Source: Bacteroidales bacterium (GTDB lineage Bacteria; Bacteroidota; Bacteroidia; Bacteroidales; WCHB1-69). From it: DNA of 34,983 nt. Under the pieces are notes generated by a model. It had not been told where the DNA came from, ran no database searches, and worked only from the letters and a program-made list of their open reading frames with translations. The stretch is from contig JAISUP010000009.1 in NCBI GenBank assembly GCA_031272025.1, positions 1 to 34,983 of the forward strand, written 5' to 3'. A program made the position numbers and the translations under genes. Below, piece by piece: positions 1,068-15,476 of this stretch (its first letter is position 1; the number at the start of each line of letters is the position of its first letter).

Positions 1068-3803
1068 TTACATATAATCTCTGAAATCTTTCTTTAAGTT
1101 ATATTTGAGGTCTTGCAATACAGATGCTTTCACGTTAATCGTGAAACTCCAACCTTTTTGAAAACCAAAAGGCACCCATTCGAAGTGCATTTCCCAACAA
1201 TGCAAATCTCTATAAATATCTAATTTTGTATATGTTAATTCTTTTCCAACGATGTCATAGCCGGTAGTTACGCCTACTTTCCATTTGCGGGTAATGTTAA
1301 AATCGCCCATGATGTTCACGGTATGAATCATGGCATTCGTGTACTTTTTGGGTGACAGTCCCCGATAATAAGCATAGTCATCGCGAAGATTATAGTCGAA
1401 AGAATAATTGAAAGTAAAAGACCACGGGTTACTAAAATCGGCATGGGTAGTAGAACCAAGCACGGCAGAGTTCAACGAGCGTTGGGACAAATTTCCCATG
1501 TTTTGTTGATTTGCCGGACGCTTTTTGTCGGATTTACCATTAAACGTGTTCCCGTCCAAAGTCCACGTTACTCCTAAATTGAAACTCGTGGACGAGAGCC
1601 TGAATAACTGCTTGTTTTCATTGATTTCCAATTTATTAACACGTTGTCCTTGTTCGTTAATACAATAAGGATCAAAGTTTACATTGGCAGTGATGTTAAT
1701 TTGCTTAAAAAGGACCGTGCGGGCACTAATCACGAGCGGTTGCCATTGTAGCGAATCGGCAGCAAAATCATATTGCGTACTAATACTTAAATTATCCAAT
1801 ATCACAATTTTTTTAGAGCCTGTAATGGTATCTTTTTTGGATTTTATTTTCATTTCCACGTTATTACTCAAACTAATAGAAGCCAAAGCCTGCGTGCGTA
1901 ACGAGGGAACTCCATAAGGGGTATTTTGGAAAAACGAATAAGGAATATCGGCATCGTTAATATAGTCATGATAGTAGCCTTGTAGAACCGATTCTTTATT
2001 TAGTCCGGGACGATAAGTGAAACTAATATTAGGGGTCATCACGTGACGAATACCCAGAAGTGCCCCTTGCTTAAACAAATACATGAAATAGACTTTGGTA
2101 CTAAACGCCGAAGACAAACTGAGATCATGTAGGGGATAAAAACCTCGACTAAAAATATCGGTTACCACGGGAATTAAGAGATTGTTCACGGTATCTTCGT
2201 TGACGGAAAATTCTTTTCGCGTATTTTGCAAATAAAAAATTTCATTAAAGTTCACACTGGTATTCCAGTTAAATTTGCCTAACTTTATAGGAATAGAAAG
2301 CGGGATATTGTGTTTCATGCCAATATTGGTTTGCCGCCACGTTTCAATCCGTTTAAGATTAGAATCTATGGTATTCATTTGATTACTCATACTCGAACGC
2401 CATTGCAAGGCAATATTATCCCACCATTTAAGGGTGCCTGTTTTATTTTTTTTTCTAAAAGGATAAAATTGATTCACGTACATATTCACATCGGGCAATG
2501 AAACCGTGGCATTATGTGTTTGTGTATTTTGGTCGTAAGAAAATGCCGCGTCTAAGAAAAAGACTCCTCCCGCGTTGGTGGAAAACGATATCTTCGAGGC
2601 ATATTGATTCGACAAGTAATCCATTGCAGAACTGGGGTTGTATTTGTTGTAATTGCTGGTAACAAAATTAACATGAGCCGAAAAACGGGTCGTGGGGTGA
2701 GACTTTGCATCTTGCTGATGTGTCCAATACACTTTAAAGTCGCTTGAAGGTGAAAAAGAAGATGTATAACGCTCGCCAAGCAACGTACGGGCATAACTCA
2801 TCTCTACCCTACCATTGCATTTATAGCGAAAAACGTAATTAGAATTTGCCCTTACAGCCCAACTGCCTCTCGTGAATATATCTGCTGTGAGCGCGAGGTC
2901 AATGTTGTCACTAAAACCAAAATAAAAACCAATCCCTTCAAAGCCAAACCCCATGTTCGCGGTTTCTCCAAATTTGGGCATGAGAAAACCCGAAGCCCGC
3001 CCTTTCTGATTAGGAAAAAACCCAAAAGGAATGGCTAAAAAAGTAGGCACATCACCAAAACTAAGATAGGCAGGACCGGTAATAATCTTGTCGTTAGGGA
3101 TAACCTTGGCTTTGGTAAAGGCTATTTCAAAATGAGGATGTTCTAATTCGCAAGTCGTGTATTTCCCCGACTTAATGTAACTGTAATCTTCCAATTTCTT
3201 GATTTGTTCTCCATGAATATATCCTTCGCCTTCGGTAGTAATCACGTGCGAAATTTTTCCTTTTTTGGTGGTAAAGTTATATTTGATTTCACGGGCGTGG
3301 TATTCTCCCACGTCTTGTTTAAAAACAGGATGTCCCCATATTTTTCCTACCGTATCGGCTATGCCACTGGCATATAATTCGTTTTGCTGAAAGTCAATCT
3401 CTATATATTGGGCATCTAATTCCATGTCCTCGTATTTGGTTACGGCTTCCGTGTAGAGATATACTTTTTTACGTTTCACATCTATTAAGATAGAATCTTC
3501 GGAATGATAATCCACAATCTTTTCCAATCCTTTTTTCGATATTTTTAGTGAAGGGATAGAATCTTTCGTTTTGTTCATCGTGTCAGGCGAGATCGTGGTA
3601 AGGGATACGGTATCCATTCGCGGGGCAATCGTGTCTTGCACCTTTAGAAGCGAATCGGGGGGCGGTGCCCACGACCAAAGAATTACTCCCGCGCGTACCG
3701 GCATGGAATAGAAAGAAACCAGCAAACATAAGGTATTGAAAAATAATACTATCCAATACCAGCAAAAAGAGGTCCGGGCTTTATGTAACCATTTCTTTTT
3801 CAA
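1068..3803 (-). CDS. lptD: LptD-like (OstA family) LPS assembly outer-membrane protein
   Basis: 911 residues, in the usual range for Bacteroidetes LptD homologues. Residues 1-12 are basic and 13-34 hydrophobic, which fits a signal peptide. Roughly residues 95-230 resemble the periplasmic OstA/LptA-like domain (repeated short strands with a DAQYIEID-like pattern). The rest is rich in alternating aromatic strands, as expected of a large outer-membrane beta barrel that inserts lipopolysaccharide into the outer leaflet with LptE. The start is TTG at 3803: no in-frame ATG fits before residue 34, and the TTG gives a good basic, hydrophobic leader. An AAAAAGG stretch lies upstream. It follows the nucleoside kinase gene by 14 bases and is probably the last gene of the ffh-dut-rhaT-kinase-lptD run. 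The family is clear; the LPS role is inferred from the family. Confidence 0.85.
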   Translation of the reverse strand: MKKKWLHKARTSFCWYWIVLFFNTLCLLVSFYSMPVRAGVILWSWAPPPDSLLKVQDTIAPRMDTVSLTTISPDTMNKTKDSIPSLKISKKGLEKIVDYHSEDSILIDVKRKKVYLYTEAVTKYEDMELDAQYIEIDFQQNELYASGIADTVGKIWGHPVFKQDVGEYHAREIKYNFTTKKGKISHVITTEGEGYIHGEQIKKLEDYSYIKSGKYTTCELEHPHFEIAFTKAKVIPNDKIITGPAYLSFGDVPTFLAIPFGFFPNQKGRASGFLMPKFGETANMGFGFEGIGFYFGFSDNIDLALTADIFTRGSWAVRANSNYVFRYKCNGRVEMSYARTLLGERYTSSFSPSSDFKVYWTHQQDAKSHPTTRFSAHVNFVTSNYNKYNPSSAMDYLSNQYASKISFSTNAGGVFFLDAAFSYDQNTQTHNATVSLPDVNMYVNQFYPFRKKNKTGTLKWWDNIALQWRSSMSNQMNTIDSNLKRIETWRQTNIGMKHNIPLSIPIKLGKFNWNTSVNFNEIFYLQNTRKEFSVNEDTVNNLLIPVVTDIFSRGFYPLHDLSLSSAFSTKVYFMYLFKQGALLGIRHVMTPNISFTYRPGLNKESVLQGYYHDYINDADIPYSFFQNTPYGVPSLRTQALASISLSNNVEMKIKSKKDTITGSKKIVILDNLSISTQYDFAADSLQWQPLVISARTVLFKQINITANVNFDPYCINEQGQRVNKLEINENKQLFRLSSTSFNLGVTWTLDGNTFNGKSDKKRPANQQNMGNLSQRSLNSAVLGSTTHADFSNPWSFTFNYSFDYNLRDDYAYYRGLSPKKYTNAMIHTVNIMGDFNITRKWKVGVTTGYDIVGKELTYTKLDIYRDLHCWEMHFEWVPFGFQKGWSFTINVKASVLQDLKYNLKKDFRDYM

Positions 3804-3817
3804 TTCAATATGCCTTT

Positions 3818-5473
3818 TTAATATCTGAACAAACTTCCCCCAACAAATTCTCGCAAGATGGAGCCGGAAGGTACCGATTGTTCGGGAATGGTTTTGAAAA
3901 AAGCGAGAAACTTAAGCAGTCGCCGTGCCTCCGCGTATTCGGGTGCTGTTTCCGGAATATCTCGCAAAAGAGGTATCGCCTGCTGTTTGAGTACCCCCAA
4001 TTCGCAAATCAAAGAAGTATTGAACATCGCGTCTGCCTGTTCCTGATACGGGAAAATGTATTTTGCCTCCCCTGAGCGCACGCTCGCCCAACGCCGAATC
4101 GTGTCCAACGCCGAATAGCCTCTAAATTGATAATCTCGTATCATTCTCCTGATAAGACGGTTATCTGTCGTTGGAATAGGATTTTGAGAATCAATAGAAA
4201 CAGGAATCAGTGCCGAGATGAAAATCTTGTACTTCACGGCATCATCTACTTGTGCCGTCAATCGCGGGTTCAAACAATGAATACCTTCAATTACCAATAT
4301 AGAGCGGGGTTCCATTCTTATTTTTTTTCCATGCCATTCTTTTTTTCCTGTCGTGAAATTAAAGGTTGGCAACTCCACCTCTTCTCCCTGAATCAAATGA
4401 TTGAGTGTTATATTAAATAATTGTAAATCAATAGCATCTATGGTTTCAAAATTATAATTTCCATGCTCGTCTTTGGGGGTATCTTCCCGTTCCACGAAAA
4501 AGTTATCCACGGATATTTGCACGGGACGGTACCCCAATACGCCTAACTGTACCGACAACCGTCTGCAAGTCGTTGTTTTTCCGGAACTTGAAGGACCACT
4601 CATTAACACCATCTTTATCGTTGTTTTCCGGTGTATTTCATCGGCAAGGTTGGCAATCTGCTTTTCGTGAAAAGCCTCCGATATTTGTATAAACTCTTCT
4701 ATTTCACCGTTTTCTATTTTCCTGTTGATATCCCTGATGTAAGGAACGCCAATGTCGGAAACCCATTTTTTATACGATTGATAGACAGAAAACAACTTGG
4801 GCGACTTACGCGTGATCCCTACTTGTAACGGGTTATACCTTGAAGGCAATTTGAGCAAAATCCCATTTTCGTATAACTCTAATTTATATACATTTACATA
4901 ATTTGTGGAGGGGACAAGAAAACCATAATAATAATTGACGGCATCCTGCAAACGATAAACGGAGGTAAAGATTTTGCCCCTGTCTTGAAAGAGATCTATT
5001 TTTTCGTATAATTGATGTTGTTCAAAAATCTGCATTGCCTCTCCGGTGAGCAATTCTTCTCGTTCAAAAGGGAGGTCTGCCGCGGTTAATGTTCTCATTC
5101 GCTCTTCTAAGCGACTAACAATCTTCTCATTTAATGGTTCTTGGCAGTTTTCTAACTCACAATATTTGCCCCCGGAGATAGAGTGCATAATTTTTAGATT
5201 TGCTCCCGGCATGAGGTCTCTCACTGCTTTATATAGCATAAAATACGCGGAACGACTATACATTCCCATGCCATATTCTGAGGTAATATCAAAAAAACGA
5301 ATCGTTACAGGCTTATGAATCCGGTAACTCATGTCGCGAACTTTATTGCTTACCAACGCTCCTAAAATAGAATATTCGGTAGGCACATTCTCTTGCTCGG
5401 CAATCTCCCGCAAAGAAGTCCCATACGGATATTCTCGCTTAGTTTCAATATTTTGCAAATAAATAGAAATCAT
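3818..5473 (-). CDS. Nucleoside (uridine) kinase with N-terminal TGS/tRNA-synthetase-like region
   Basis: 551 residues from the ATG at 5473. A longer frame upstream would start at a poor site and overlap rhaT, so I rejected it. The N-terminal ~60 residues look like a TGS domain, followed by a region resembling the second additional domain of threonyl/alanyl-tRNA synthetases. The C-terminal half is a uridine kinase/phosphoribulokinase-type P-loop domain with the Walker A motif GPSSSGKTT at residues 293-301. Bacteroidetes commonly carry this architecture, annotated as nucleoside kinase. It presumably phosphorylates a nucleoside such as uridine with ATP or GTP in pyrimidine salvage, though substrate specificity cannot be read from sequence. 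The gene follows rhaT by 28 bases on the same strand. Confidence 0.85.
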   Translation of the reverse strand: MISIYLQNIETKREYPYGTSLREIAEQENVPTEYSILGALVSNKVRDMSYRIHKPVTIRFFDITSEYGMGMYSRSAYFMLYKAVRDLMPGANLKIMHSISGGKYCELENCQEPLNEKIVSRLEERMRTLTAADLPFEREELLTGEAMQIFEQHQLYEKIDLFQDRGKIFTSVYRLQDAVNYYYGFLVPSTNYVNVYKLELYENGILLKLPSRYNPLQVGITRKSPKLFSVYQSYKKWVSDIGVPYIRDINRKIENGEIEEFIQISEAFHEKQIANLADEIHRKTTIKMVLMSGPSSSGKTTTCRRLSVQLGVLGYRPVQISVDNFFVEREDTPKDEHGNYNFETIDAIDLQLFNITLNHLIQGEEVELPTFNFTTGKKEWHGKKIRMEPRSILVIEGIHCLNPRLTAQVDDAVKYKIFISALIPVSIDSQNPIPTTDNRLIRRMIRDYQFRGYSALDTIRRWASVRSGEAKYIFPYQEQADAMFNTSLICELGVLKQQAIPLLRDIPETAPEYAEARRLLKFLAFFKTIPEQSVPSGSILREFVGGSLFRY

Positions 5474-5501
5474 CTTAATTTTTTTATTAGAAAAAACAAA
5501 A

Positions 5502-6545
5502 CTATGAAACCATACCACCTACCACAAGAACAGATGCGATGAGTACCGCGAGACCGACAATGAGCACAATAATGGTCTTTTGCCCCGCACCTTTCCATTC
5601 TTTGAGAATAATTCCCCAAACATTGCTAAACAAAACATTGAGCGACATAAGAATACACCAAGAAAAGGCAAGCAACACGGGGCTGCCGGTCAAGAAACTC
5701 TTGCCTATTTCGAGCCCAAAAAACTGTGAATACCAAAGTAATCCTGCCAAGGCACAGAATATGAAATTGTTAACAAAAATCCCGCTCGACACGGTTGCAT
5801 AATCTTTGAAAGTTTTGTGGGCAATATTTTGTTGAATGCAATAAGTGGCATTCGTGATAAAGCCGCCAATGGTAACGAGTAGCACGGACGGGAGCCCTGC
5901 AAAGAGTGGGGCAACACCTTGTTTGATGAGTTCATTTTTCACGGCTACCCCCGACTCGAGTCCCAGCGCGAAGCACGCGCTCATAATGCCAGCCAATAAG
6001 GCAATCAATAACCCTTTCTTTAAGGCAAAATCTTTTACTGCTTCCCGTTTCGCGTCTTCACTCATGTTGGCAGATTTCAAAGCCCCCGCGTAACCGATAA
6101 TCGCGATGCCGGCAATGGCAACTGCAACCCCAATAAGCAATATAAGTCCCTCGTCATGAAACAAATCTTTTCCATTGAGTAGCGCGGGAATTAAAGTGCC
6201 GAAAGCCGAGCAGGTACCCAACGCGAGCGATTGTCCGAGCGCGACTCCAAGATAACGCATACTTAGCCCGAAAGTAAGTCCCCCAATGCCCCAAAGTATC
6301 CCAAAACCAATGGCTTTCCATGCCGCCGCGTTGCCACCCGCCAACAAAACGTCTGATAACGTAGCCCCATCAGGAATAGCCAATAAAGCCCCAATTACGG
6401 GAAATACCAACCACGCGAAAATACCTTGAAACAACCAAAACGATTCCCACGACCACTGTTTTACTTTGCGAATAGGAACATAAGAACTCGATTGCCCAAA
6501 ACTGCCCAACGCGATAATTAACAAACCTAAAATAACATTTTCCAT
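5502..6545 (-). CDS. rhaT: L-rhamnose/H+ symporter family protein (RhaT)
   Basis: 347 residues from the ATG at 6545; a TTG five codons upstream (6560) is a weaker alternative. About ten hydrophobic segments span the protein, with the early signature GSFGQSSSYVPI followed by KQWSWESFW, which fits the RhaT branch of drug/metabolite transporters. The family imports L-rhamnose with a proton through the inner membrane. No rhamnose isomerase, kinase or aldolase gene lies nearby; instead it sits between dut and a nucleoside kinase gene. Transport of rhamnose is therefore a family inference, and another sugar or metabolite is possible. Confidence 0.85.
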   Translation of the reverse strand: MENVILGLLIIALGSFGQSSSYVPIRKVKQWSWESFWLFQGIFAWLVFPVIGALLAIPDGATLSDVLLAGGNAAAWKAIGFGILWGIGGLTFGLSMRYLGVALGQSLALGTCSAFGTLIPALLNGKDLFHDEGLILLIGVAVAIAGIAIIGYAGALKSANMSEDAKREAVKDFALKKGLLIALLAGIMSACFALGLESGVAVKNELIKQGVAPLFAGLPSVLLVTIGGFITNATYCIQQNIAHKTFKDYATVSSGIFVNNFIFCALAGLLWYSQFFGLEIGKSFLTGSPVLLAFSWCILMSLNVLFSNVWGIILKEWKGAGQKTIIVLIVGLAVLIASVLVVGGMVS

Positions 6546-9553: not shown

Positions 9554-10093
9554 ATGACGAAGAAATTTTTTATCGTGCTGGCAATTTCATTGATAGCCAT
9601 GCCGTTGTTTGGACAAAAATATGCCTATATTGATTCGGAATATATTTTAGGCAACATGCCGGACTACACCGAGGCGCAAGCCGAATTAGATCGTGTAGCA
9701 GCAGTTTGGCAAAAAGAAATTGAAGCGCGTTTTAAAAGCATCGACTCTATGTATAAAAAATATCAAGTAGAAGCGATCACGTTGCCCGACAAGATGAAAA
9801 AAAGTCGCGAAGATGCCATTATCACGGCAGAAAAAGAAGCCAAAGATTTACAAAAGAAACGTTTTGGGCAAGATGGCGATTTATTTAAGAAACGCGAAGA
9901 ATTGGTAAAACCCATACAAGACAGGGTGTTTACCGCCATAGAAGAGTATGCCCGCGAAAAAGCATACGCCTTTGTCTTTGACGTTGCCGGCTCCATGACC
10001 ATCGTCTACGCCGACCCTAAATGGGACATCAACGACCAAGTCATGCAAAAATTGGGAATCTCCGCGAAAAATAAAACCAATAATGATGATTAA
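9554..10093 (+). CDS. OmpH/Skp family periplasmic chaperone (copy 1)
   Basis: 179 residues starting MTKKFFIVLAISLIAMPLFG, a clear signal peptide with likely cleavage before residue 22. The mature part begins with the family pattern KYAYIDSEYILGNMPDY and continues as a charged, Lys/Glu-rich coiled coil (about residues 45-125). It returns to the beta core with YAFVFDVAGSMTIVYADP. Skp/OmpH trimers hold unfolded outer-membrane proteins in the periplasm. This copy is the most diverged of the three here and has an extra C-terminal tail. It starts 75 bases after lpxC; no good promoter is visible between them, so read-through from lpxC is likely. Confidence 0.9.
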   Translation: MTKKFFIVLAISLIAMPLFGQKYAYIDSEYILGNMPDYTEAQAELDRVAAVWQKEIEARFKSIDSMYKKYQVEAITLPDKMKKSREDAIITAEKEAKDLQKKRFGQDGDLFKKREELVKPIQDRVFTAIEEYAREKAYAFVFDVAGSMTIVYADPKWDINDQVMQKLGISAKNKTNNDD

Positions 10094-10146
10094 ATAATTG
10101 ATTTATAAAAAATAAAATGATTTATAAAAAAACAGTAAAAAGACAG

Positions 10147-10653
10147 ATGAAGAAAATTGTAGTTTTAGGATTCGTTGCGTGTTTGGGACTGCTAACCACG
10201 GGGTTTGCTCAATCACAAAAATTTGCACATGTCAATTCTCAGGAAGTTTTGCAATCTATGCCCGGCGTAGACTCTATAAACATTAAATTACAGGCTTTTC
10301 AACAAGAATTGCGTTCGGCATACGAAGAGATGATGAATGATTATCAAGCAAAAAGAGAAAAATTTGATAAAGAAGCAGGTACCATGTCTCAAAGTGTTAG
10401 GCAAATGAGAGAAAAAGAAATTACAGACCTCGAAAGACGAATTCAGGAATTTCAATCCAGCGTGCAAGTAGACCTCGAACAAAAACAATACGACCTCGCC
10501 AAACCTTTTCAAGACAAAATACAAAACGCCATCTCCGAAGTCGCCAAAGACGGAAACTATACCTATATCTTCGATAAAGCCATTCTTTTATATTCCGATG
10601 GAGGCGTGGACATCACCCCTATGGTTAAGAAAAAACTGGGTATCAAACTATAA
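10147..10653 (+). CDS. OmpH/Skp family periplasmic chaperone (copy 2)
   Basis: 168 residues from the ATG at 10147, which gives a clean signal peptide (MKKIVVLGFVACLGLLTTGF, cleavage near AQS). An ATG at 10117 would add ten mostly basic and polar residues and is less likely. The mature start KFAHVNSQEVLQSMPGVDS, the central coiled coil and the ending YTYIFDKAILLYSDGGVDI are typical of Skp/OmpH chaperones. It is closer to copy 3 than to copy 1; both end in KKLGIK- or REKLGIK-like tails. It probably shares a transcript with its neighbours. Confidence 0.92.
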   Translation: MKKIVVLGFVACLGLLTTGFAQSQKFAHVNSQEVLQSMPGVDSINIKLQAFQQELRSAYEEMMNDYQAKREKFDKEAGTMSQSVRQMREKEITDLERRIQEFQSSVQVDLEQKQYDLAKPFQDKIQNAISEVAKDGNYTYIFDKAILLYSDGGVDITPMVKKKLGIKL

Positions 10654-10659
10654 TATTTA

Positions 10660-11166
10660 ATGACGATGAAAAAAATCCGGAAAATATGCCTCTTCGTACT
10701 CGTGCTCTTTCCCGCGGCATTATCGGCACAAGTAAAATTTGGACACGTCATGCCCGAAGACATCATGGGACAAATGCCCGGCTTTGATACGGCTCAAACT
10801 CAAATGAGCCAATATCAAGACGAACTACAACAAGAATATCAAACCATGATGCAGGAATTTCAAGAAAAAGTACAGGCATACCAACAGCAAATGTCAGCCT
10901 ATTCCGATGCCGTTCGTAAAATAAAAGAAGAAGAGTTGGCAGCCATGCAAAGTCGTATTCAAGAATTTTCTGCCTCCGTGGAAATGTCTTTGCAAAAAAA
11001 GAAAACCGAATTGCTTACCCCTTTTCAAGATAAAATTCTCGAAGCCATTAGTGCTGTGGCAAAAGAAGAACATTTTACATACATCTTCAATAAAAGCATC
11101 CTCTCGTTTAGCGATGCCGGGATAGATATTTCGGGAAAAGTACGAGAAAAATTAGGGATTAAATAA
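10660..11166 (+). CDS. OmpH/Skp family periplasmic chaperone (copy 3)
   Basis: 168 residues; an ATG two codons on (10666) is an equally good start. A signal peptide covers about residues 1-24, ending near LSAQ. The mature protein has the family opening KFGHVMPEDIMGQMPG, a Gln-rich coiled coil and the ending FTYIFNKSILSFSDAGIDI. It starts 6 bases after copy 2, so the two are almost certainly co-transcribed. It converges with the lipid kinase gene with only 3 bases between stop codons. Bacteroidetes often carry two ompH genes downstream of bamA; here there are three and no bamA. Confidence 0.92.
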   Translation: MTMKKIRKICLFVLVLFPAALSAQVKFGHVMPEDIMGQMPGFDTAQTQMSQYQDELQQEYQTMMQEFQEKVQAYQQQMSAYSDAVRKIKEEELAAMQSRIQEFSASVEMSLQKKKTELLTPFQDKILEAISAVAKEEHFTYIFNKSILSFSDAGIDISGKVREKLGIK

Positions 11167-12203: not shown

Positions 12204-13202
12204 TCACCGGTAAAGGACGAGCGTGCCTTTGCCCTCTCGTTTTATCCCGTCTTGATTTCTATAAGTAATCGTGTAGAAATAGTTTCCGGAAGGGGCATCT
12301 ACCCCTTTGATAGAGCCGTCCCAACCAATGGTGTGATTTTGTGTCTGAAAAACGGGATTGCCGGTTTTATCAAATACGCGAAAATCTAAGTGGGATATAC
12401 TCTGCGCGGGATATACCATAAGGATATCGTTTTTCCCGTCTCCATTCGGGGTAAATGCCGAGGGGATACTTATTTCATTGGTTGGCATTTTCGAGCGGGC
12501 AGTAGAGGTGGGATCGGGGGTGTTGACGGCAACTTCATTTTTTTGTTTCGCGGGTGCCGGAGAAGAAGGCGTAACCGGAAGGGGTGTCCCGGTCGTTTTC
12601 GAAGAATCCACATGCAAAAGTTCCGGCGGCGTCAAAACAAGAACAGGAGTTTTCACGGGATCTGAAAGAAGCGGGGTAACATTATCCAAATTCGTTACCC
12701 CCGCGGGTAGCCCTTGCCTTTCTGTTCTCAATTCTAACGAAAGGGTATCAGGGTTTGGGAGTACCGAAGAAGATGTTTCCAATGTCCGGTTATCCGAAAA
12801 ACTCTTCGCGAACTTGTCATCATGCTCTGTCCGTGTATATTGTAATATACTCCATTCTCCTACCTTTTTATTTTCCACAAAAATCAATCGCGAATCAAAA
12901 GTCATGGAGGGCATTTTATTCGTATCTTGCACGGGGACAACGGAAGCAGGTAGCGGCATGGGGGTGGGAGCCGGTTCGTTAGAAGTTCCTTTGAGTAAGA
13001 AAAAGGTCATCGTGGCAACGACAATCGCCGCCGCCGCGGAAATCACTATGGCACGGACTTTCCAACGACATGCTTTTCTATACGCGCACAAACGAACATC
13101 GGCATCAATTCTATTCCACACCCGGCTTTGCGGACGAGAAATATATCGCTTAAAATGCCCCTTAAAATACCTGCCAATATCTTCTTCTACATGTTGGTCC
13201 AT
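12204..13202 (-). CDS. Single-pass anti-sigma-like membrane protein with gliding-type (CHU_C) C-terminal domain
   Basis: 332 residues from the ATG at 13202; the longer frame adds an unlikely basic leader. Residues 1-48 are charged and cytoplasmic in appearance and carry the RPQSRVWNRID pattern. It resembles the P...VW..I motif at the N-terminus of many Bacteroidetes proteins encoded next to ECF sigma factors. Residues about 50-71 are a transmembrane helix. A long Pro/Ser/Thr-rich linker follows, then from residue 243 a gliding motility-associated C-terminal domain (SAFTPNGDGKND, then DKTGNPVF, GWDG and a final GTLVLYR). No sigma factor gene is adjacent. The protein may be an anchored envelope protein or a signalling component; the function is not established. 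Confidence 0.75.
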   Translation of the reverse strand: MDQHVEEDIGRYFKGHFKRYISRPQSRVWNRIDADVRLCAYRKACRWKVRAIVISAAAAIVVATMTFFLLKGTSNEPAPTPMPLPASVVPVQDTNKMPSMTFDSRLIFVENKKVGEWSILQYTRTEHDDKFAKSFSDNRTLETSSSVLPNPDTLSLELRTERQGLPAGVTNLDNVTPLLSDPVKTPVLVLTPPELLHVDSSKTTGTPLPVTPSSPAPAKQKNEVAVNTPDPTSTARSKMPTNEISIPSAFTPNGDGKNDILMVYPAQSISHLDFRVFDKTGNPVFQTQNHTIGWDGSIKGVDAPSGNYFYTITYRNQDGIKREGKGTLVLYR

Positions 13203-13300
13203 CTTTCCTTTGTTTTTGTGAGTATTTAATTTTAATAAAAAAACACGGATATAAAACAAGACTTATTTTCTGCAATTTTGTTGCCTGCAAAAAGATAAGA

Positions 13301-14483: not shown

Positions 14484-15476
14484 TTAGTTTATTACTATTT
14501 TTTTAATATCTCGTGTTTGGGCGGTGTGGATACGAACAATATACATGCCTTTTGCCCAATGAGATACCGGTATCGCGCAGGTGCCGGCGGCAACATGCTG
14601 TTGATGGACCAGATTGCCGGCGAGATTGTATACCGCGATTTCAGATGCTTCGGTAAGATTGACCTGCAAAAAGTCGGTTACCGGATTGGGATATAGCGAT
14701 ACGCTACCCTTTTGTGTTGACAAATTTCGAATGTCGGTCTCGTCCTCTAACGGGATAAACGCGTAATCGAATTTGAGAAAACCCGGTTTGCCATTTTCAA
14801 CAAATTGTTTTAAAAAAATCTTCACATATTTTCCTGTCGTTGTTTTTAGGACGACAATCATGGGATTTTCTATTGAACCGCCCGACATGGACAGGGTCGC
14901 GAAGTCTGCCGAGGCTCCTTTGACGGTATCGGCACGGGTCGCTTTACAAAGCGACAAGGTCGTTGCCCTTTGGGGGGGCATTTGCGCGAGAGAAAGATAG
15001 AAAGTGCCACTAACAAGGGTGTCGGCGGGATAGGATACATCCGGGGCGGCTGTCAAGCGGTCGTAGATTTGCTCTAACGTGCTCGAAGTCGCCGCCGCGG
15101 ACAAAGAATCGGCGATAAAAATAGCCCCCGCGTTGCCCAATCCGGCAAGCCCACTGTTCGTGCGCGTGTCGTAAGCGTGAAACGCGATGTCCCAATCCTC
15201 GCGCAACTGCCACGTGCTGTCTATTTTTTCCGTGCCTACTTTCCCCGGATTGAGATTTTCAAGCACGAAATCGGAAGTGCCTCTGACAATCACACCCTCG
15301 TTCTCGTCAAAAGAAAAATAATGCCACCTCGCGAAATCGGGCAATTCCATGTCCGCGTTTACTACTTTGACAGTGCCTGCATACAGACTGTCGTAACTAA
15401 ATGATTGCGCGTGAGCAACCATTCCAAAGGCTAATCCAAAGCCCAAAAACAGAGAAGAAAAAAATTTCGTGTTCAT
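14484..15476 (-). CDS. HmuY-like protein with T9SS type A (Por) sorting tail
   Basis: 330 residues. A signal peptide covers 1-23 (ending AHAQ). The central domain contains WDIAFHAYDTRTNSG (residues 95-109), then GLGNAGAIF; this pattern resembles the HmuY family, whose Porphyromonas gingivalis founder is a haem-binding hemophore. From about residue 257 a Por secretion tail follows: SLYPNPVTDFL, an NLAG turn, GMYIVRI and a final KKIVIN. It is therefore expected to cross the outer membrane by T9SS and be attached to, or released from, the surface. HmuY itself is a lipoprotein; this one has no lipobox. No TonB receptor (hmuR) is adjacent. Haem binding is unproven; His52 and His100 are the only histidines I see in the N-terminal 110 residues. 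Confidence 0.72.
   Translation of the reverse strand: MNTKFFSSLFLGFGLAFGMVAHAQSFSYDSLYAGTVKVVNADMELPDFARWHYFSFDENEGVIVRGTSDFVLENLNPGKVGTEKIDSTWQLREDWDIAFHAYDTRTNSGLAGLGNAGAIFIADSLSAAATSSTLEQIYDRLTAAPDVSYPADTLVSGTFYLSLAQMPPQRATTLSLCKATRADTVKGASADFATLSMSGGSIENPMIVVLKTTTGKYVKIFLKQFVENGKPGFLKFDYAFIPLEDETDIRNLSTQKGSVSLYPNPVTDFLQVNLTEASEIAVYNLAGNLVHQQHVAAGTCAIPVSHWAKGMYIVRIHTAQTRDIKKIVIN

Follow-up and report, generated by a model that had tools for sequence, protein, structure and literature searches.

The window, by which we mean the whole 34,983-nucleotide stretch of DNA analysed here, carries on its minus strand an open reading frame (14484..15476) with an ATG start and 330 codons. The encoded 330-aa protein is composed of a signal peptide, an HmuY domain and a T9SS type A sorting tail. 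Judged by eye, the protein begins with a plain Sec signal peptide (residues about 1-24; 15405..15476, minus strand), whose cleavage site was placed in the same way. The first cysteine of the protein is residue 177; the protein therefore has no lipobox. The lipobox cysteine is invariant in all 17 aligned tail-less single-domain HmuYs, a set chosen for alignment and not a survey. The HmuY domain, PF14064, occupies residues 49-238 (14763..15332, minus strand) and scores 61.2 bits in Pfam (cut-off 27, E 1.6e-16); a whole-genome search with PF14064 finds it at the same place with 62.5 bits. The sorting domain (residues 261-330; 14487..14696, minus strand) is recognized by two models, both over cut-off: Por_Secre_tail (PF18962) at residues 261-329 with 54.2 bits (Pfam, cut-off 27, E 1.9e-14) and TIGR04183 at residues 261-330 with 49.9 bits (NCBIfam, cut-off 23). 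An earlier reading, made from the sequence only, had described exactly this composition, an HmuY-like domain behind a plain signal peptide with a Por secretion tail replacing the lipid anchor, and the profile searches and the position of the first cysteine bear it out.

Assignment of the protein to the HmuY family rests on sequence comparison. Besides the Pfam match, a phmmer search connects it with the solved B. fragilis HmuY homologue 8b6a (E 4.2e-11), and a profile-profile comparison, with the window protein and its closest relative (L011) as query, matches the 17 tail-less HmuYs with probability 99.6 and E 4.9e-24. Structure prediction started from an alignment of three rows containing window and L011 sequences only, and because of this small number of rows the models are weak: mean pLDDT is 45.6 for both the full mature protein (pTM 0.38, usable in the tail only) and the HmuY core (pTM 0.50). 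Among solved C-terminal domains of T9SS proteins, the predicted tail matches 8glk_D (TMt 0.82) and 8qb1_A (TMt 0.72). For the low-confidence core model, Foldseek gave no match at E <= 0.001, its first five rows being HmuY structures, and the best seven VIA-align matches are all HmuY-family structures with Z of 4.0-4.8, the next one reaching 2.9. The weak core model agrees with the HmuY fold and is no proof of it. The low confidence of the models and the lack of a significant Foldseek match might be taken to mean that the profile hit arose by chance on an unrelated T9SS cargo. Such an explanation is scarcely credible: it is already contradicted by the sequence evidence, namely the Pfam score at more than twice the cut-off and the phmmer and profile-profile matches, and the VIA-align ranking also speaks against it.

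The gene is flanked by the genes for uracil-DNA glycosylase and GAPDH, all on the same strand, and the genes further out have housekeeping or envelope functions (BatA/BatB-like proteins, SRP54, LpxC, OmpH, LptD). No TonB receptor was found among window ORFs of at least 120 aa with a TonB-plug profile built for this analysis, and the 11 Pfam Plug matches in the genome all lie on contigs other than that of the window (C36). The GAPDH flanks were compared in six genomes from the same genus or family; within the approximately 1.5 kb searched (less in L156 and L160) they contain no HmuY. In one same-genus genome (G002), a different T9SS-tailed protein of 419 aa is encoded upstream of GAPDH, at the position of the window gene (L157, 2631-3890); it was rejected as a counterpart, the similarity being confined to the tail. 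Two other features of the window may be recorded here. Three OmpH/Skp-like genes follow in succession at 9554-11166 (plus strand), and the protein encoded at 12204-13259 (minus strand) bears a T9SS type B / CHU_C sorting tail with no N-terminal signal peptide (by eye), its charged N-terminal part being followed by one hydrophobic stretch, like in a membrane-anchored regulator.

The genome, about 91% complete, encodes one other HmuY, located on contig C30. It bears a lipobox, scores 115.6 bits, and its gene stands directly before that of a 736-aa TonB receptor with Plug and barrel domains. The best NCBIfam models for this receptor are TIGR01786 and TIGR01785 (haemoglobin/haem receptor), with scores below their cut-offs. 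The sequence-only reading had proposed a search of the genome for an hmuR-like receptor; the C30 gene is a candidate hmuR. The search for T9SS components covered SprA and PorU and found both, SprA with 2416 bits (cut-off 200) and PorU with 1261.9 bits (cut-off 420), in accord with the tail of the window protein; the tail region of this protein, and no other part of it, is matched at 33 additional places of the genome (E <= 1). The organism therefore possesses an ordinary HmuY-receptor pair together with the machine to export a second HmuY.

The only close relative that we found (genome_contigs collection) belongs to a Candidatus Symbiothrix MAG (L011, 5921-6901). It is 58% identical to the window protein overall and 69% over the mature HmuY part, with HmuY domain and T9SS tail both intact. 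Its gene is the last of a tight cluster, in the order TonB receptor (3251-5173), HmuY lipoprotein (5209-5892) and T9SS-tailed HmuY, separated by 35 and 28 bases. This receptor and the C30 receptor are 31% identical over 650 aligned positions. A paper search for Symbiothrix and heme returned nothing. Among the 103 other genomes of the family, the HmuY part of the window protein is matched in two (E <= 1e-5), by frames of 225-232 aa, too short for a tail, and a tailed counterpart is present in none at the same threshold. A plasmid search gave two tail-type matches only, neither of them reaching 80% query coverage. A T9SS-tailed protein encoded upstream of hmuY in the same-genus genome G003 (L048, 17432-18385) was considered as a second HmuY and discarded: Pfam recognizes the tail only.

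Absence from 103 family genomes indicates that relatives do not need a tailed counterpart, and the window HmuY could accordingly be seen as a duplicate of the C30 HmuY that is redundant or decaying and at present serves no function. We find this improbable. Reading frame, signal peptide and tail of the window gene are all intact, and both domains have been kept in the 58% identical protein of another organism. Moreover, similarity to the C30 HmuY is only distant (47%, over a 76-residue stretch only), so that the window gene is not a recent duplicate.

The HmuY part past the signal peptide contains just two histidines, His52 and His100. The sequence-only reading had noted their scarcity and had left the ligand open. 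We took the solved structures 3h8t, 6eu8 and 3u22 as reference for the ligand columns. According to passages of PMC6200708 and PMC7956564, positions 109 and 141 of the HmuY chain 3h8t correspond to the published His134 and His166 (offset 25 by our own count), the ligand-column residue of Tfo (6eu8) is Met149, and positions 127 and 154 of Bvu (3u22) correspond by an offset of 18 to the published Met145 and Met172. In the profile-profile alignment of the window and L011 proteins with the 17 lipoprotein HmuYs, Met197 (codon 14886..14888, minus strand) falls on the ligand-2 methionine column and Met166 (codon 14979..14981, minus strand) on the column of Bvu Met145. When all methionines of the query were masked, Met197 did not move and Met166 shifted off the ligand-1 column. 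Met197 is thus a good candidate for the second axial haem ligand, as in Tfo/Bvu-type HmuYs, and Met166 a possible, uncertain first one; a bis-methionine pair as a firm claim was given up because of the displacement of Met166 upon masking. Hence the ligand is less open than first stated as far as its second position is concerned. The alignment shows both methionines to be kept in L011. A passage of PMC12106395 describes methionine-type HmuYs as preferring haem under reducing conditions, and a preference for reduced haem would suit an anoxic gut.

The protein might also have retained the HmuY fold and changed its ligand, becoming an exported binder of a porphyrin other than haem, of a compound resembling a vitamin, or of a surface ligand. 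A changed ligand would explain both the lost receptor linkage, that is the orphan position between the uracil-DNA glycosylase and GAPDH genes, and the long inserts of the window protein: relative to lipoprotein HmuYs, one insert, of approximately 16 residues, precedes the conserved tryptophan-aspartate core, and a second precedes Met197. Haem binding without iron coordination, reported for some HmuYs in the part of PMC12106395 considered here, fits in the same direction. We nevertheless regard a changed ligand as rather unlikely, for a receptor and an HmuY lipoprotein are encoded beside the closest relative, whose HmuY part is 69% identical, and the ligand-2 methionine is kept in both T9SS-tailed proteins.

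Our best reading of the window protein is that of an accessory haemophore, exported and feeding the C30 receptor in trans. It is probable that we deal with a T9SS-exported HmuY, most likely binding haem and handing it to the C30 pair. The protein would be synthesized with its Sec signal and would cross the outer membrane by the T9SS; PorU would then sort it onto surface lipopolysaccharide, or else it may be released after PorU cleavage. Haem would be bound in the HmuY pocket away from the membrane, probably with methionine ligation favouring the reduced form, and would finally be handed over to the C30 HmuY lipoprotein and its TonB receptor. We infer the tie between window protein and C30 receptor from their shared genome and from the layout in relatives, and from nothing else.

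This layout is not confined to L011. In a sample of 395 genomes of the phylum, HmuY is present in 120 at E <= 1e-5. We scanned wide stretches with our own profiles, 20 from relatives and 60 from the phylum sample; the latter were chosen exclusively around HmuY matches (E <= 1e-5) whose frames reach at least about 245 aa, though not around every such match, and G451, G301, G406, G402 and G486 have no wide locus in the survey. Besides the window protein and L011, an HmuY stretch combined with a C-terminal T9SS tail occurs in 16 ORFs from 15 genomes. Five of them come from four relatives (L041-L045) and eleven from eleven genomes of the phylum sample (L103, L106, L107, L108, L111, L115, L134, L138, L145, L146 and L151), so that 11 of 120 HmuY-bearing genomes is a lower bound; five of the eleven loci (L103, L106, L107, L108 and L111) stem from a single family and do not count as independent cases. 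Six of the 16 ORFs were analysed with Pfam. The tail is over cut-off in five (L044, L045, L107, L115, L138) and just short of it in L134 (24.1 vs 27); HmuY is over cut-off in L044, L045 and L115, under it in L138 and unreported in L107 and L134, where the HmuY call is therefore that of our own profiles alone.

A TonB receptor lies less than 2 kb from 13 of the 16 tailed ORFs; it is 3.8 kb off in L145, and L115 and L138 have none within the stretch examined. Tail-less HmuYs are encoded in the same stretch in 13 cases as well (all except L115, L145 and L146). Several loci were fetched via a neighbouring HmuY match and these counts therefore favour clustered genes; of the nine tailed ORFs that gave a Pfam match themselves, seven have a receptor at less than 2 kb. 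As most of the tailed HmuYs surveyed are receptor-linked, the window gene and L115 represent a less usual, unlinked form, and the window copy is an orphan of a recurrent layout. The statement of the sequence-only reading that no receptor is adjacent is correct for the window locus; such a lack is untypical of the tailed HmuYs surveyed.

Two observations on the surveyed stretches are added for their own sake. Six of them encode a T9SS-tailed protein of 266-299 aa beside the TonB receptor of the HmuY locus (L103 9185-10081, L106 9292-10104, L107 2761-3609, L108 2755-3603, L111 9348-10145 and L113 9340-10149); it is situated between the receptor and the T9SS-tailed HmuY in five, the L113 stretch ending before that point, and in the two examples analysed with Pfam (L106, L111) the tail only was recognized. 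One locus, L041 9824-17432, contains three HmuY genes, two tail-less and one T9SS-tailed, and two TonB receptors.

The other 16 tailed HmuYs are longer (412-472 aa) and as a rule contain two HmuY stretches, in contrast to the window type with its single HmuY domain close to that of lipoprotein HmuYs. For this reason HmuYs may have acquired the T9SS tail on at least two occasions. We tentatively suggest, with less than even confidence, that a haem relay with two anchors is recurrent in Bacteroidota: a T9SS HmuY in the surface coat or medium and a lipid-anchored HmuY at the membrane would share one TonB receptor, and the window organism would have uncoupled its exported HmuY, which would act in trans. 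If this is true, many Bacteroidota capture haem at two positions of the cell surface, and the T9SS takes part in haem supply by other means than proteases as well. Taken alone, the window gene is of modest value: it is another T9SS-tailed HmuY, unusual in lacking an adjacent receptor.

The sequence-only reading had seen in the protein a different way of placing an HmuY module on the surface. This novelty does not hold. The HmuY of Flavobacterium columnare (C6N29_01035), an organism of a different class of Bacteroidota, has by its domain description the same two parts as the window protein, pfam14064 and Por_Secre_tail, and is called T9SS-secreted and extracellular in a passage of PMC9618737 citing Thunes et al. 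2022. This is the only paper describing a T9SS-tailed HmuY that our search of open-licence PMC articles found. According to the same passage, an hmuY deletion mutant of F. columnare grows like the wild type in iron-limited medium and keeps its virulence; T9SS HmuYs therefore need not matter for iron supply. Flavobacterium psychrophilum has the HfpR-HfpY system (PMC9331221, in part), in which a haem-binding HmuY relative is accompanied by its cognate TonB receptor, unlike the window gene. Another likeness is by description: POREN0001_0445 of Porphyromonas endodontalis is presented in the relevant part of PMC11208336 as a protein with a T9SS type A sorting domain that belongs to an hmu operon and has homologues standing as orphans elsewhere, and is described there as beta-barrel-like and not called HmuY.

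P. gingivalis HmuY, T. forsythia Tfo and B. vulgatus Bvu belong to the same family as the window protein and, as far as testable, probably share its fold; Met197 aligns with the ligand-2 column of Tfo and Bvu. These three are lipoproteins encoded as a rule in hmu operons, whereas the window protein has no lipid anchor and no linked receptor, and bears instead a T9SS tail and long inserts. The two histidines by which P. gingivalis HmuY ligates haem are not in place in it. The T9SS-tailed HmuY architecture is already in print and its kind known. For a receptor flanked by both a T9SS-tailed and a lipoprotein HmuY, our open-licence PMC search found no description, and it is this recurrent receptor-centred locus, not the window gene alone, that we consider the more interesting result.
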